From a virus, in IMG/VR virus record IMGVR_UViG_3300022602_000462, positions 1-22,529 of that record: 22,529 nt of DNA, one strand, 5' to 3'. The notes under the pieces were generated by a model. It did not search any database. It had not been told where the DNA came from and saw only the letters and a program-made list of their open reading frames with translations. Below, one piece after another: positions 3,749 to 22,529 of this stretch (positions are counted from its first letter, which is position 1; every line of letters begins with the position of its first letter). The translations under genes and the position numbers were made by a program.

Positions 3749-5188
3749 TTATTGCGCATACGGATTAACAAACTTTTTATTGTGGTCATCTGCGTACGAA
3801 TAGTCCCTTGGTGGCAGGTAGTCTAATTGAATCCAGCCTGAGTCACGAAGGACTCGTAGCGCTTGTGATAATGAATCCACATAGTCATCATGTCCGCCTG
3901 CTTCTGGGAATGAACACACTTGACGCAAGAAACGTTTTGCCCAGTCTGCAAACTCACCAGGACGTTGTGGATCTTCTGGTATCCAGATCTTGCCTTTTGC
4001 AACTAGTGGTGCTACAATGTTCAAGCGTTGAACTTTATCAGCGCGGCCTGGATTGTATCCACGAACTTCGATACCAGATCCTTGGAGCTCTTGAATGAGG
4101 GAGATACCTGCTGACTTATCTTCCATCAATACGAGATCGGCTTTCCTTCCTTTCCCGAAATCGTTATCAGCTCCATAGACAACTTCTTTGAAGTCATCGA
4201 TGACTTTACGTCGGAGTTCTGGATAAGCTAGGTGTCCGTCCCAAGCATCAAGTAATATCACTGCGGTGCCTGCATCTTCTTGTTCAAAGATTCCCCAGAT
4301 GGTACATGCTGTCGGATCGTTCATTGTCTTTTCAGATGTGGCTGGATCGTATGATGCAATCACATATTCTAAGTTAGGCGTGGGTTTGTTAGCAGGCCAC
4401 ATACGGAATTGTTTACGCTTGATGATACCTGCTTGCTCAGGATCTAAGATTTCACCATAAATTTCTTGGCGACCAATGTCAGTGCCATCGTAAGTCTCTA
4501 ACTGTTTGAAGAACGTTTGAGATAGATTCTCTTTGTTGTCGTACGATGATGCGTTGACCACATAAACATCGCCACCCACTTTACCTTCGTTAAGATCAAC
4601 GATAAGCTCTTTAGGTTTTGGCGTTGTGGTAATAATCTGTTGTACACGAGGAATGCGTGGATCTTTAAGACGCAATGTAAACTGAACGCCATCGTATGCA
4701 TCGTCTAAGTATTCAAACGCACATAACTCGTCGAACCAAGCGCCATGGAATTGTTTACCTCGATAACGTTCTGGTTCGGATGCTGGGATACCTTGGATCA
4801 AAGATCCATTGGTCAAAGTAATCTCAAAGAGTGATTTGTTATAATCTTTGATGAGTGATGGCGGTATGATGTTAAGAAGACCTGAGTCCCCTTCGAAACA
4901 TGTTGCGCGAATATCATTAGACGTTGGTGCTGTGACTAACCAACGTGTGTTGTTAAACTTCCATGCACGAATACCAATCCAGTGTGATGCCGTGTGAGTT
5001 TTACCTGATCCTCGACCTGCCAACATAAGGAACGTATCATACTCGCCATCGTCTGGTTCACGTTGGTGAGGTAGCGCTTGCATTTGCCAACGAACTTGCC
5101 ATAGGGCAGCTTCTAGTTGTTGCTTTGGCCAGTGGCGGTTCTTTTCCGCAAACTGTTTTAATATGGCTTCTTGTTTTGGGTTTAGCAT
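3749..5188 (-). CDS. Terminase large subunit (packaging ATPase/nuclease)
   Basis: This 479-residue protein cuts and pumps phage DNA into the prohead. The ATPase half has Walker A GRGSGKT (residues 58-64), Walker B WFDE (151-154) and the coupling motif TTTP (187-190). The RNase H-like nuclease half has its acidic residues in ASYDP (D281), LMEDKS (E356) and GGHDDYVD (D434/D435). Length and order fit a complete enzyme. Its ATG lies inside the last codons of the upstream Hint gene (shared ATGCTAA), so the two are translationally coupled. Transcription is leftward towards the portal. Confidence 0.95.
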   Translation of the reverse strand: MLNPKQEAILKQFAEKNRHWPKQQLEAALWQVRWQMQALPHQREPDDGEYDTFLMLAGRGSGKTHTASHWIGIRAWKFNNTRWLVTAPTSNDIRATCFEGDSGLLNIIPPSLIKDYNKSLFEITLTNGSLIQGIPASEPERYRGKQFHGAWFDELCAFEYLDDAYDGVQFTLRLKDPRIPRVQQIITTTPKPKELIVDLNEGKVGGDVYVVNASSYDNKENLSQTFFKQLETYDGTDIGRQEIYGEILDPEQAGIIKRKQFRMWPANKPTPNLEYVIASYDPATSEKTMNDPTACTIWGIFEQEDAGTAVILLDAWDGHLAYPELRRKVIDDFKEVVYGADNDFGKGRKADLVLMEDKSAGISLIQELQGSGIEVRGYNPGRADKVQRLNIVAPLVAKGKIWIPEDPQRPGEFADWAKRFLRQVCSFPEAGGHDDYVDSLSQALRVLRDSGWIQLDYLPPRDYSYADDHNKKFVNPYAQ

Positions 5189-6177
5189 GCCTGTATAAAT
5201 CCTTCGCCGACTAAGATTGAGTTATCTTCATCGTGCGTTTCAATATGAACACACATCTGAGATTGAATAGGTTGGATGTCTTTGATGTAGCGTCTACCAT
5301 AATGAACTTTGACCGGTGGCGAGATCTGATGTTCCATAATGCGTGACTTAGTTCTGAAGAAGATTGTGTAGTCCTTCTTAAAGTCATCTGACGTGACGCT
5401 TGATTTATTTCCAAGAGATTCTACCAGTCCTTGAATTTGTTTAACGGTCCCGTAATGCTTGGACGAAAATCTAAACAAATCACGTGCGGGTGAATATTGT
5501 CTTGATTTAGAATGCATGATGCCTGATAGCAGATTAAGTCTCTCTTCAACCGAGCCTAATAAATAACTGTCAGGTATTTCTCTTGGGATGTTGGGGGCCA
5601 GTTGTGATTCTATGGTAGGCGATACTGTAAAGTAACGCTCACCATTGTCTCCATGTTTACCCTCGGTGATCTTGTATCCGGCGTTCTTAAATTGGTCGTG
5701 GATATATTTTGCTAGTCTAGGTGGTGGCAGTAATTTGTTTTTATTATTTCGATTAAAGAACCAGAACCCAAAGATAAAAGATGGGACGGATAAATACTGG
5801 TGGGGTAATTCTATGGGCTGAGTTGTGGGGATAGAATAGGCCGATCTATTTCTCTTATCCTTGAGTGATAAATTTTTAAGATGGTCTATTTTAGTAAATC
5901 GTAACGGACGTCTGAATCTTTTTTGGATGCCCTTGTACTCATCCAAGCGCTTACGATATTTTCTATCTTCTATTAGGAAGCCTAAATGTTTGTCACCTGC
6001 TATGGTGAGGTAGTCGTCAAACATAATCTCGTAGCAATCTTCTGAGAAGTATTGCTGGACCAATTTGATTTGGGTCAACTTACCATCCTTATTGAAAACA
6101 TAGTCGCCTTCTTTTAATTTGGAGGCTGGTTTCCAATAGTCGTAGGTTAACACTTTTTGAGTTGCTAGTATTGCCAT
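5182..6177 (-). CDS. Free-standing intein-like Hint protein with degenerate LAGLIDADG domain
   Basis: This 331-residue protein looks like an intein without exteins. Residues 7-31 match intein block A (TQKVLTYDYWKP, LKEGDYVF, KDG). Residues 49-68 match block B, with T58 and the GDKH stretch (61-64). The C-terminal 24 residues (from CVHIETHDEDNS to ILVGEGFIQAC) match blocks F and G. The middle resembles a LAGLIDADG endonuclease (LLSGIMHSK, FRFSSKHYGTV, LVESLGNKSSV), but the catalytic Asp positions are not Asp. The chain starts MAILATQ, so the nucleophile at intein position 1 is absent, and the usual terminal His-Asn is Gln-Ala before a final Cys. Splicing is therefore doubtful; a degenerate or repurposed Hint is likely. 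Its final codons overlap the terminase start. Confidence 0.75.
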   Translation of the reverse strand: MAILATQKVLTYDYWKPASKLKEGDYVFNKDGKLTQIKLVQQYFSEDCYEIMFDDYLTIAGDKHLGFLIEDRKYRKRLDEYKGIQKRFRRPLRFTKIDHLKNLSLKDKRNRSAYSIPTTQPIELPHQYLSVPSFIFGFWFFNRNNKNKLLPPPRLAKYIHDQFKNAGYKITEGKHGDNGERYFTVSPTIESQLAPNIPREIPDSYLLGSVEERLNLLSGIMHSKSRQYSPARDLFRFSSKHYGTVKQIQGLVESLGNKSSVTSDDFKKDYTIFFRTKSRIMEHQISPPVKVHYGRRYIKDIQPIQSQMCVHIETHDEDNSILVGEGFIQAC

Positions 6178-6255: not shown

Positions 6256-6330
6256 TTATTTGTTCATCACGTACATAGTTACTTCAAAGCCAAAACGCAT
6301 TTCAGTAGCTGCTGGTTTAGTCCAAGCCAT
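6256..6330 (-). CDS. pqqA: PqqA, precursor peptide of pyrroloquinoline quinone
   Basis: This 24-residue peptide begins with MAWTKPAATEM and continues RFGFEVTMYVMNK. It carries the PqqA hallmark: Glu16 and Tyr20 in E-V-T-M-Y, the two residues that PqqE cross-links and that become the PQQ skeleton. The flanking WTKPA, the R.GFEVTMY core and the 22-24 residue length also fit beta- and gamma-proteobacterial PqqA. A perfect ribosome site (AGGAG, 6 bases before ATG), two promoter-like motifs upstream (6376-6386, 6431-6461) and a terminator downstream show an intact expressed unit. PqqB, C, D and E are absent here, so the peptide would have to be processed by host enzymes. PQQ serves periplasmic methanol and other quinoprotein dehydrogenases. 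Identification is by motif alone but the match is hard to explain otherwise. Confidence 0.9.
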   Translation of the reverse strand: MAWTKPAATEMRFGFEVTMYVMNK

Positions 6331-6461: not shown

Positions 6462-6502
6462 GGAATTGTTTTTATATATCACTTTTTCCAATTTAATTGT
6501 TT

Positions 6503-6784
6503 GTAAGTCATTGATTTCATTCAGTTTGTCAGGGTACAAAATTTGTAAGTCATTGATTATAAAGGATTGTTACAATTTAGAAACAATTTTGTGTCAGGGT
6601 ACGACCTCTGTAACCCATTGATTTTAAACACATTGTCACAGTAGTACCAGTAGTTTACACTTTTTTTCTTTTTTTTTAAAAAAATAAAATAAAAAGATAG
6701 AGACAAAAGTGAAATAAAGGGGTACTACTAGTACTACTATGACAATCTGTTTAGAATCAATAACTTACAAAGGTCATTTTTGCC
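6503..6784. repeat. Left copy of a 282-bp inverted repeat
   Basis: This stretch matches the reverse complement of 13027-13310 almost end to end. A block of about 46 bases is identical (6561-6606 against the reverse of 13205-13250), and the rest differs by scattered substitutions and one- or two-base gaps. It contains two TGTCAGGGTAC sites (6527-6537, 6592-6602), several GTAAGT-CATTGATT units and GTAGTAC/GTACTAC units. Its second half is itself a near palindrome around an A/T-rich centre (about 6660-6720): the arm at 6610-6653 returns inverted at 6724-6770. No gene is supported inside it. Confidence 0.9.
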
Positions 6785-7025: not shown

Positions 7026-7066
7026 AGGCGTCCACATACCCCTACTGCCAGTGTGGGTATTTGCCT
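7026..7066. repeat. Hairpin repeat, copy 1
   Basis: ATACCC (7036-7041) pairs with GGGTAT (7055-7060), and an outer AGGC/GCCT pair encloses it. The loop holds CTACTGCCAGTGT, shared with copy 2. Confidence 0.65.
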
Positions 7067-7081
7067 AACATACTTTGATGC

Positions 7082-7135
7082 GCCGGTCAAGTAGCTAATA
7101 CCCCTACTGCCAGTGTGGTTATTAGGAGGGCTGGC
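7082..7135. repeat. Hairpin repeat, copy 2
   Basis: CTAATACC (7095-7102) pairs with GGTTATTAG (7117-7125) with one bulge. An outer stem GCCGGTC (7082-7088) with GGCTGGC (7129-7135) adds seven pairs, two of them G-T. The loop is nearly identical to copy 1 and the right arm to copy 3. Confidence 0.65.
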
Positions 7136-7197
7136 ATGATTCTTGCTAGGCCTTCGGCCACACAACCACATTAGGTCGCCGCCGTCAAGCCGTTTCG

Positions 7198-7224
7198 AAT
7201 ACCCATGATAGCAGTGTGGTTATT
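7198..7224. repeat. Hairpin repeat, copy 3
   Basis: AATACC (7198-7203) pairs with GGTTATT (7218-7224). The loop (CATGATAGCAGTGT) differs from the other copies, but AGTGTGGTTATTAGG is shared with copy 2. An outer CGCC/GGCG pairing is possible. Confidence 0.55.
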
Positions 7225-7485
7225 AGGTAGCGTGGCGAGTAGCAAGAATCGTGCCAAGCTCATAGACATCACTGCAACGCGCTACAACGCACGATTGAAT
7301 TTCGTAGCCATGATGGTATTAAGTAGGGCACGATCGTTTGCCTATGACGCAAACAGGTGGGTTGGCGCGTCCTATGCGCGTGCGAGGGTGAGAGGTGGGG
7401 TGGCGCGGGATAGTGATCAATTTGGGTGGGACTGCGCCCCCAATAAATATGTTGACACCAATTAAAAGATCAACGACAATTCACT

Positions 7486-7758: not shown

Positions 7759-8541
7759 ATGAATAAGAAAACAATGCCATACGCAGAGCTACTCAAAGAA
7801 GCAGTATCAAAGAAGGGCGTGCTCAGCTCATGCTACTCACGCTTCCACCGCTATAGTTTTGCCAATCAGATTTGGGCTTGGAGTCAATCATGCGAGATGA
7901 ATATTCCGCTCGCACCGATCGCTACACTCAAGCAATGGAACGCAATGGGTCGCAAGGTCAAGAAGGGCGCTAGTGCGATCTTCTTAAACATGCCAGTCAT
8001 GATTGACGTTAAAGATCCAATCACAAAAGAAAAGACCGGCGAGGTGAAGCAGTTATTCATACCACGCAAGAATTGGTTTTTCTTATCTCAAACCGAAGGC
8101 GACGACTACGTCCAAGAAGAAAAGATCGCAGAGTGGGACAAAGATCTCGCGCTAAAAAATCTCAACATCGATGAAGTGCCATTCACATTGGCAGACGGCA
8201 ATTGTCAAGGCTATGCAGAAGGCCGTAGCATCGCGATCAATCCGGTCGCAGTGTTACCTCATAAGACACGCTTCCATGAGATCGCTCACATCGTGCTAGG
8301 CCACACGCTCGAGCACAAGATGGCTGATAGCGAGCTCACACCTCGAGACATCCGCGAGGTCGAAGCAGAGTCAGTGGCTTACATCCTATGCCAAGTGTTA
8401 GGGCTCAAGGGCGAAGAAGAGTCACGCGGGTATATTCAGTCATGGCTCAAAGATAAAGACATCGAGGACGCAAGCGCACGCAAGATCTTTTCAACCGTTG
8501 ATAAGATCTTGAAGAGCGGTCAAAAAGACGCTACAATATAA
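7759..8541 (+). CDS. ArdC-like antirestriction protein with metallopeptidase domain
   Basis: This 260-residue protein has the ArdC layout. The N-terminal half (about 1-120) contains NQIWAWSQ, TLKQWNAMGRKVKKGA and a WFFLSQT strand, as in the ssDNA-binding domain of ArdC and TraC-type proteins. The C-terminal half carries a zinc peptidase motif HEIAH (173-177) within RFHEIAHIVLGH, and the downstream Glu in VEAESVAYIL (about 203), as in ImmA/IrrE-like peptidases. Plasmid ArdC protects incoming DNA against host restriction and binds single-stranded DNA. Being second in the early block fits a protein needed as DNA enters. The fold call is firm; the protease target is unknown. Confidence 0.85.
   Translation: MNKKTMPYAELLKEAVSKKGVLSSCYSRFHRYSFANQIWAWSQSCEMNIPLAPIATLKQWNAMGRKVKKGASAIFLNMPVMIDVKDPITKEKTGEVKQLFIPRKNWFFLSQTEGDDYVQEEKIAEWDKDLALKNLNIDEVPFTLADGNCQGYAEGRSIAINPVAVLPHKTRFHEIAHIVLGHTLEHKMADSELTPRDIREVEAESVAYILCQVLGLKGEEESRGYIQSWLKDKDIEDASARKIFSTVDKILKSGQKDATI
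8509..8537 (+). promoter_or_regulatory. Sigma-70-like promoter at the end of the ArdC-like gene
   Basis: TTGAAG (8509-8514) and TACAAT (8532-8537) are spaced by 17 bases. An overlapping TATAAT lies at 8537-8542. The pair precedes the leader and gene at 8574. Confidence 0.5.
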
Positions 8542-22187: not shown

Positions 22188-22329
22188 ACCTGGACTATAC
22201 GCAAACATCCATGCAAAACAAAAACGCATCGCTGCGGGATCTGGCGAGAAAATGAGAAAGCCTGGAACTAAAGGCGCACCTACTGCAAAAGCTTTTAAAG
22301 AGTCTGCTAAAACCGCTAAGGTAAAATAA
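22177..22329 (+). CDS. Small basic protein (50 aa), phage-conserved type
   Basis: This encodes 50 residues, very basic, with GLYANIHAKQKRIAAGSGEK followed by MRKPGTKGAPTAKAF. The pattern is familiar from small proteins next to the packaging genes of many podoviruses; its role is unknown, and binding DNA or RNA is a reasonable guess. AAAGGAAAACC gives a ribosome site. It is coupled to the next gene by TAATG. Confidence 0.75.
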   Translation: MATKPGLYANIHAKQKRIAAGSGEKMRKPGTKGAPTAKAFKESAKTAKVK

Positions 22330-22529
22330 TGGCACAACCTACCAATAAGAAATTTAAATTTACAGAAGAGCACGCCAAGATCATTATTGATCTAGGCAAA
22401 CAAGGTGCATCTCAAAAGTCTATGTATGCTGCAATTGGCATAAGTAAAAGCACTGGTATTAAACTTAAAAAAGAAGATCCAGCATTTGCAGAAGCTATGG
22501 ATTTAGCTTCAACATATTCTCAGTCTTAC
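22329..22529 (+). CDS. Probable terminase small subunit, C-terminus beyond right edge
   Basis: The frame is open from the ATG at 22329 to the window end (67 residues). It has an N-terminal HTH-like part (EEHAKIIIDLGKQGASQKSM, AIGISKSTGIKLKKED) followed by AFAEAMDLASTYSQSY, which resembles the DNA-binding domain and linker of phage small terminases, where F-x-E-A-x-D-x-A-x-x-x-S-Q-x-Y is common. The gene continues outside the window, so length and oligomer domain cannot be checked. The large subunit lies far away on the other strand, an unusual arrangement. Confidence 0.65.
   Translation, partial: MAQPTNKKFKFTEEHAKIIIDLGKQGASQKSMYAAIGISKSTGIKLKKEDPAFAEAMDLASTYSQSY

Follow-up and report, generated by a model that had tools for sequence, protein, structure and literature searches.

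The gene that precedes terL, the gene for the terminase large subunit, in a genome of an uncultured phage clade raises the question of what an intein does once it stands alone, with no host protein to be spliced from, and why it should be kept at that place. The window, i.e. the whole stretch of DNA analysed here, comprises 22,529 nucleotides, and the features on which the argument rests are collected in Table 1. A preliminary description made from the sequence had proposed that the product of this gene (hereafter the Hint gene) is an intein-like protein with a LAGLIDADG-like core, possibly a terminase intein turned into a gene, a domain joined to the terminase by frameshifting or a protein with a new role such as self-cleavage or packaging control. 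The coordinates of the open reading frame, its terminal residues (GEGFIQAC before the stop; last codons GGA TTT ATA CAG GCA TGC TAA) and the ATGCTAA overlap with the terminase start were all borne out on the sequence.

Table 1. Features of the terL locus and its surroundings, in positions of the window.
Feature	Position	Strand	Remark
Terminase large subunit gene (terL), 479 aa, uninterrupted	3749..5188	-	
Overlap of 7 nt, ATGCTAA, terL start within the last codons of the Hint gene	5182..5188	-	Forces Cys331
Free-standing gene of intein origin, Hint + LAGLIDADG, 331 aa	5182..6177	-	Without splicing and nuclease residues
C-terminal Hint half, residues 290-331	5185..5310	-	Class 3 Cys position is H311; without terminal Asn
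GAAGGA, Shine-Dalgarno-like site for terL within the Hint gene (Glu325-Gly326 codons)	5200..5205	-	Putative, from sequence and conservation
LAGLIDADG domain, residues 125-285	5323..5805	-	Catalytic Asp positions are N142 and K224
N-terminal Hint half, residues 2-71	5965..6174	-	Ala2 probably intein residue 1
PqqA-like 24-aa ORF, MAWTKPAATEMRFGFEVTMYVMNK, upstream of the Hint gene in the window's subclade	6256..6330	-	
Direct and inverted GTAAGTCATTGATT repeats in a divergent intergenic region	6485..6771	.	Candidate regulatory, origin or binding sites
Start of a TerS-like gene (phrog_309), truncated at the end of the window and some 16 kb away from terL	22329..22529	+	

The identity of the protein was addressed by profile, sequence and structure comparison. 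The Pfam and NCBIfam profiles gave no match to the Hint ORF and a search of the PDB by sequence returned no related chain; on the other hand, the family comparison proposed earlier succeeded with PHROG, in which families of intein-bearing terminases matched (phrog_15, E 4.9e-11; phrog_36964, E 2.2e-07). In tblastn searches phage inteins aligned along the whole length of the ORF in 299 records, all below 60% identity and with a best E of 7e-15 among the matches listed. An AlphaFold2 model built on an alignment of 46 relatives (pLDDT 92.7, pTM 0.88) has the predicted fold of a full intein, with blocks A, B, F and G in a Hint horseshoe, the feature for which structure prediction had been suggested as a check, and a LAGLIDADG domain with both of its motif helices. 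A Foldseek search of the model against the PDB led to PI-SceI and other LAGLIDADG inteins, and VIA-align placed it on PI-SceI with a Z of 24.7 and 3.7 A over 315 aligned residues, and on mini-inteins, including the class 3 inteins MchDnaB1 and MsmDnaB1, with a Z of about 19 and 1.9 A. In these structure alignments residue 2 pairs with the first residue of the inteins, and residue 331 falls on their last position but one (144/145 in MchDnaB1), so that the terminal Asn of an intein has no counterpart in the Hint protein. The Hint/LAGLIDADG identity, including the intein blocks and the LAGLIDADG-like core claimed at the outset, is confirmed by the PHROG matches, the tblastn matches to phage inteins and the predicted fold.

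It has been established that class 3 inteins are without a nucleophile at residue 1 and carry Trp B12, Cys F4 and Thr G5 as their signature (PMC3196547, PMC5050341), the class 3 residues of MchDnaB1 being His65, Trp67, Cys124 and Thr143 (PMC7664689). The five nearest inteins aligned with the Hint protein (Rousseau DnaB, LittleE TerL, B23 TerL, RaK2 TerL and Shaqnato gp205) all possess HxW, the block F Cys and THN/T, where the slash marks the intein boundary, and the four that have a clear N-terminal boundary (GK/ALxxxT, FK/ALAIDT, GK/AISNNT) start with Ala. Ala2 is invariant in 137/137 distinct Hint genes, a non-nucleophile as in class 3 inteins, and because the nearest inteins are of class 3 with Ala1, it probably represents residue 1 of the ancestral intein; the ORF as a whole is, as judged from its sequence, best read as Met followed by an intein trimmed at its ends. 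Thus, the first-position nucleophile reported as missing is indeed absent, but the loss of a Cys1 was set aside as an explanation since this absence is normal in class 3 inteins. An intein origin of the gene is well supported by sequence and predicted fold. The proposal of a terminase intein turned into a gene accordingly stands insofar as an intein is now a separate, terL-linked gene, but that it once resided as an intein in this same terL is unproven; TerL inteins in publications are located in the ATPase domain (PMC5050341), a region across which the terL of the window is uninterrupted. Among loci with enough upstream sequence no intermediate with intact splicing residues was found, and an examination of the odd locus L351 and of the TerL-like split pieces in L246 and L269 brought up no intein-bearing intermediate either.

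The extent to which the catalytic residues have been lost was counted over 137 distinct full-length relatives, each of which has its own start and stop instead of being embedded in a host protein. The block B His is kept in only 45/137, the Trp B12 position (66) holds Gly, Ala, Glu or other residues and Trp in 0/137, and the Cys F4 position (311) is His in 128/137, Tyr in 8/137 and Thr in 1/137, never Cys, while Thr at position 330, corresponding to Thr G5, occurs in only 16/137; the W/C/T triplet of class 3 inteins is therefore not found in this family. Two residues N-terminal to the F4 site there is a Cys, Cys309, that hardly varies and that, by alignment, is not the class 3 nucleophile. A terminal His-Asn is seen in 0/137, one gene ending in ACN without an extein. 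Likewise, neither LAGLIDADG acid position has Asp or Glu in any relative (0/137 each): position 142 varies among Asn, Ser, Ala, Gly and Arg, with Asn in 109/137 (80%), and position 224 among Lys, Arg, Tyr and Asn, with Lys in 129/137 (94%). That these substitutes are themselves conserved is as expected of a re-used surface, not of decay. Loss of the catalytic residues, stated before for one protein as a missing terminal His-Asn and missing nuclease Asp residues and now extended to the family, is well supported at the level of sequence, and the Hint protein is apparently incapable of both splicing and DNA cutting. Self-cleavage, which had also been considered, is not supported, as the class 1 and class 3 nucleophiles, the Trp and the terminal Asn of inteins are absent in every relative examined.

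Despite these losses the gene is retained with great regularity. Hint is present directly upstream in 171/171 distinct terL at 80% identity or more with enough upstream sequence and in 0/46 sister-clade terL (50-55% identity, again with enough upstream sequence), suggesting one gain and fixation at the base of the clade; terL between 55 and 80% identity, with or without Hint, offered nothing informative with enough upstream sequence. The patchy, mobile distribution of homing endonucleases is not observed. Median dN/dS values of 0.04-0.09, taken over non-independent pairs whose dS is below 1, indicate from coding sequences that the family is under purifying selection. Hint distances reach 0.64 vs 0.21 for TerL, i.e. 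by distance the rate of Hint exceeds that of TerL roughly three- to fourfold, and the two sets of distances correlate with a Mantel r of 0.69, as expected from shared ancestry alone. The GenBank phage collection contained no record with a close family member. Three diverged members (L096, L097 and L098) occur in one betaproteobacterial MAG (CAIPQU01), reflecting several prophages or mixed binning.

The junction with terL is as constant as the presence of the gene. The Hint stop overlaps the terL start in a different frame, and this arrangement is not due to chance, because 135/137 relatives overlap the terL start likewise, with the Cys codon lying over ATG in 131 and over GTG in 4; the comparison of terminase neighbourhoods proposed earlier revealed a related gene overlapping terL in all but two of the relatives, and the overlap implies coupled synthesis of both proteins. 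Hint genes end in GFIxxC (33 genes) or in GFIxC plus one residue, which is L, R, H, S or N (104 genes), and the place of the Cys relative to the conserved GFI consequently shifts by one codon between the two subgroups. A start codon in the overlap frame encodes only Cys, Trp or stop, NCA-TGY giving Cys, and the Cys at the end of the protein is there because the overlapping terL start codon imposes it; it was correctly noticed, but it is not the residue that follows an intein, a role as catalytic or +1 extein residue being rejected, as the start-codon overlap accounts for the Cys. The Cys persists in L053 and L124, where an HNH-type gene separates Hint from terL, and the insertion may be recent. 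These junction genes (1480-2040 in L053), assigned to the HNH type by eye with no match from Pfam, are related, free-standing and about 450 nt long, and they lie exactly between Hint and terL in two different lineages, both of which have kept the two flanking genes. In the window the terL frame opens just 33 nt 5' of the terL ATG, and synonymous conservation goes up only in the final few Hint codons, the site of GAAGGA and the ATG.

In MW202545 and Caulobacter phage RW, whose terL genes are the nearest among sequenced ones, a small subunit gene (phrog_1482 TerS) lies upstream of terL. Replacement of TerS by Hint was considered and rejected: the position of the sister terS is suggestive, but Hint phages possess a TerS-like 131-aa protein elsewhere, in 8/8 records of at least 50 kb and in 5/12 smaller ones, and one begins near the end of the window, so that Hint is not the sole TerS. 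The sister-clade TerS as sole query found no TerS in Hint phages, and no TerS families were among the PHROG matches of the Hint protein. In related Hint-less phages a shortened second TerL ATPase-like gene is located 5' of the full terL (L083, 2445-3113; L246, 755-1289).

Taken together, the reading that we favour, to which a probability of about 0.5 is given, is that of a domesticated class 3 intein, dead in both of its activities, that serves as a non-cutting, DNA-binding accessory of the terminase. A class 3 LAGLIDADG phage intein would have become a free-standing gene before terL, apparently once and at the base of the clade, by gaining a start codon ahead of residue 1 and a stop codon short of the terminal Asn. 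The residues needed to splice proteins and to cut DNA would have been lost and the protein domesticated. Being basic, it would bind DNA with its LAGLIDADG saddle within the terminase complex and, made in step with TerL, would help TerL/TerS to engage or choose phage DNA. We infer coupled translation, DNA binding, contact with TerL and a role in packaging, the last being possible; the pI of Hint is 9.1-9.9 vs 5.3 for TerL, a high value that may be no more than a legacy of the nuclease. Two observations count against a terminase accessory, namely that a TerS-like gene for the usual DNA-recognition subunit is present, as the large records all show, and that the rate of Hint relative to TerL is unusual in a core motor part. 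The more demanding version, in which the domesticated intein is a true part of the packaging motor that provides the terminase with DNA specificity or control, a separate TerS existing alongside, can only be put forward tentatively and is somewhat doubtful.

The region upstream of the gene bears on the first of two serious rivals. A 102-aa ORF without Pfam or PHROG match precedes Hint in 100/120 relatives (e.g. L007 5733-6035, L028 5667-5969) and overlaps the Hint start by 38 nt in 80 of those 100, so that dual coding accounts for part of the conservation seen at the Hint N-terminus. In the window's subclade its place is taken by the PqqA-like ORF (PQQ precursor), which 12 family records contain; PqqA has been reported from Lake Baikal phages of methylotrophs (PMC7678222), and this hints at methylotroph hosts. 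Sequences matching GTAAGTCATTGATT with at most two mismatches are found upstream in 63/96 relatives, frequently some 450-490 nt ahead of the Hint gene, and may be a replication element. The same intergenic region holds three 39-nt direct repeats (ATACCCCTACTGCCAGTGTGG...) at window positions 7035-7236, and an ArdC N-terminal-like anti-restriction protein with a zincin-like domain is encoded at 7759-8541 (+). The rival reading holds that the dead LAGLIDADG domain is a transcriptional autoregulator that binds repeats 5' of its own operon and controls the terL-led late genes, much as WhiA, which derives from an endonuclease, regulates genes. The position of Hint as second gene after the intergenic region of the window, the recurrence of GTAAGTCATTGATT, with direct and inverted copies in the window, and the basic nature of the protein all agree with this, but a regulator has no need of specific coupling to terL beyond the promoter, GTAAGTCATTGATT may belong to replication by the D5/PriCT primase and one third of the relatives have no match to it; autoregulation is considered unlikely. 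The second serious rival, next in order and unlikely too, is a chaperone or inhibitor that binds TerL, not DNA, through the Hint horseshoe and holds the motor in an inactive state up to assembly. Coupled synthesis and the pairing of an acidic TerL with a basic Hint would suit such a role, as would the higher conservation of the Hint halves (0.69 and 0.71) vs 0.60 for the LAGLIDADG domain; however, the N-terminal value is partly due to the upstream overlap in most relatives, and the two LAGLIDADG helices also show high conservation (0.84 and 0.70).

A selfish element or decaying relic, that is, an intein or homing gene in the course of being lost as in the Arth_1007 pseudogene, might be read from the disappearance of all catalytic residues and from the entry of a free-standing HNH-type gene into the same junction in two relatives, but it is very improbable given the low dN/dS, the 137 intact full-length genes and the occurrence in 171/171 terL without patchiness. 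Least probable of all is a Hint-TerL fusion made by ribosomal frameshifting, as the preliminary description had envisaged, and cleaved later. The constant overlap in one relative frame would permit a fusion, but against it stand a terL with its own start and a frame open for so short a distance, a junction without extended synonymous constraint, an overlap geometry of two different kinds, two relatives that retain both genes around an intervening one and the absence of cleavage residues.

The favoured reading, a domesticated intein acting beside TerL, can finally be set against known systems. Class 3 phage inteins (Brevibacterium phage Rousseau DnaB, LittleE/B23 TerL, Shaqnato gp205, MchDnaB1) share the fold, length and Ala1 and include the closest sequences, but they are embedded and use W/C/T/H/N in catalysis, whereas Hint is free-standing and these residues are lost or not conserved. 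Yeast HO/WHO resemble Hint as stand-alone, intein-derived proteins without exteins and with motif G lost, HO being domesticated, but they retain nuclease activity and a zinc finger, whereas Hint is without the nuclease Asp residues and without a zinc finger (PMC7282813). WhiA, a DNA-binding regulator, likewise has a homing-endonuclease-type domain (PMC11701221). It carries an HTH, while Hint keeps a whole intein and is tied to terL. To our knowledge, WhiA has no Hint domain. Arth_1007 of Arthrobacter FB24 is class 3-like, has almost no exteins and cannot splice, as in Hint, but is a single decayed pseudogene and not a large family under purifying selection (PMC3196547). Phage TerS (phrog_1482, phrog_309) is comparable in that the sister terS slot just 5' of terL is the place of Hint; however, its fold is unrelated and Hint genomes have a TerS-like gene elsewhere. 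We know of no domesticated intein that does not keep at least one activity, and HO, the best example, still cuts DNA. The open-access literature, of which coverage is incomplete, provided no report of a doubly inactive stand-alone intein. In conclusion, domesticated inteins (HO, PMC7282813), regulators derived from homing endonucleases (WhiA, PMC11701221) and a dead class 3 pseudogene (PMC3196547) are already known, whereas a conserved intein without the residues for both activities, fixed before terL, appears to be new. Across a large phage clade strong selection maintains the intein fold in full though the residues for both activities are gone, and the family thus constitutes a natural test of what an intein is capable of without catalysis and perhaps an unrecognised partner of the terminase.
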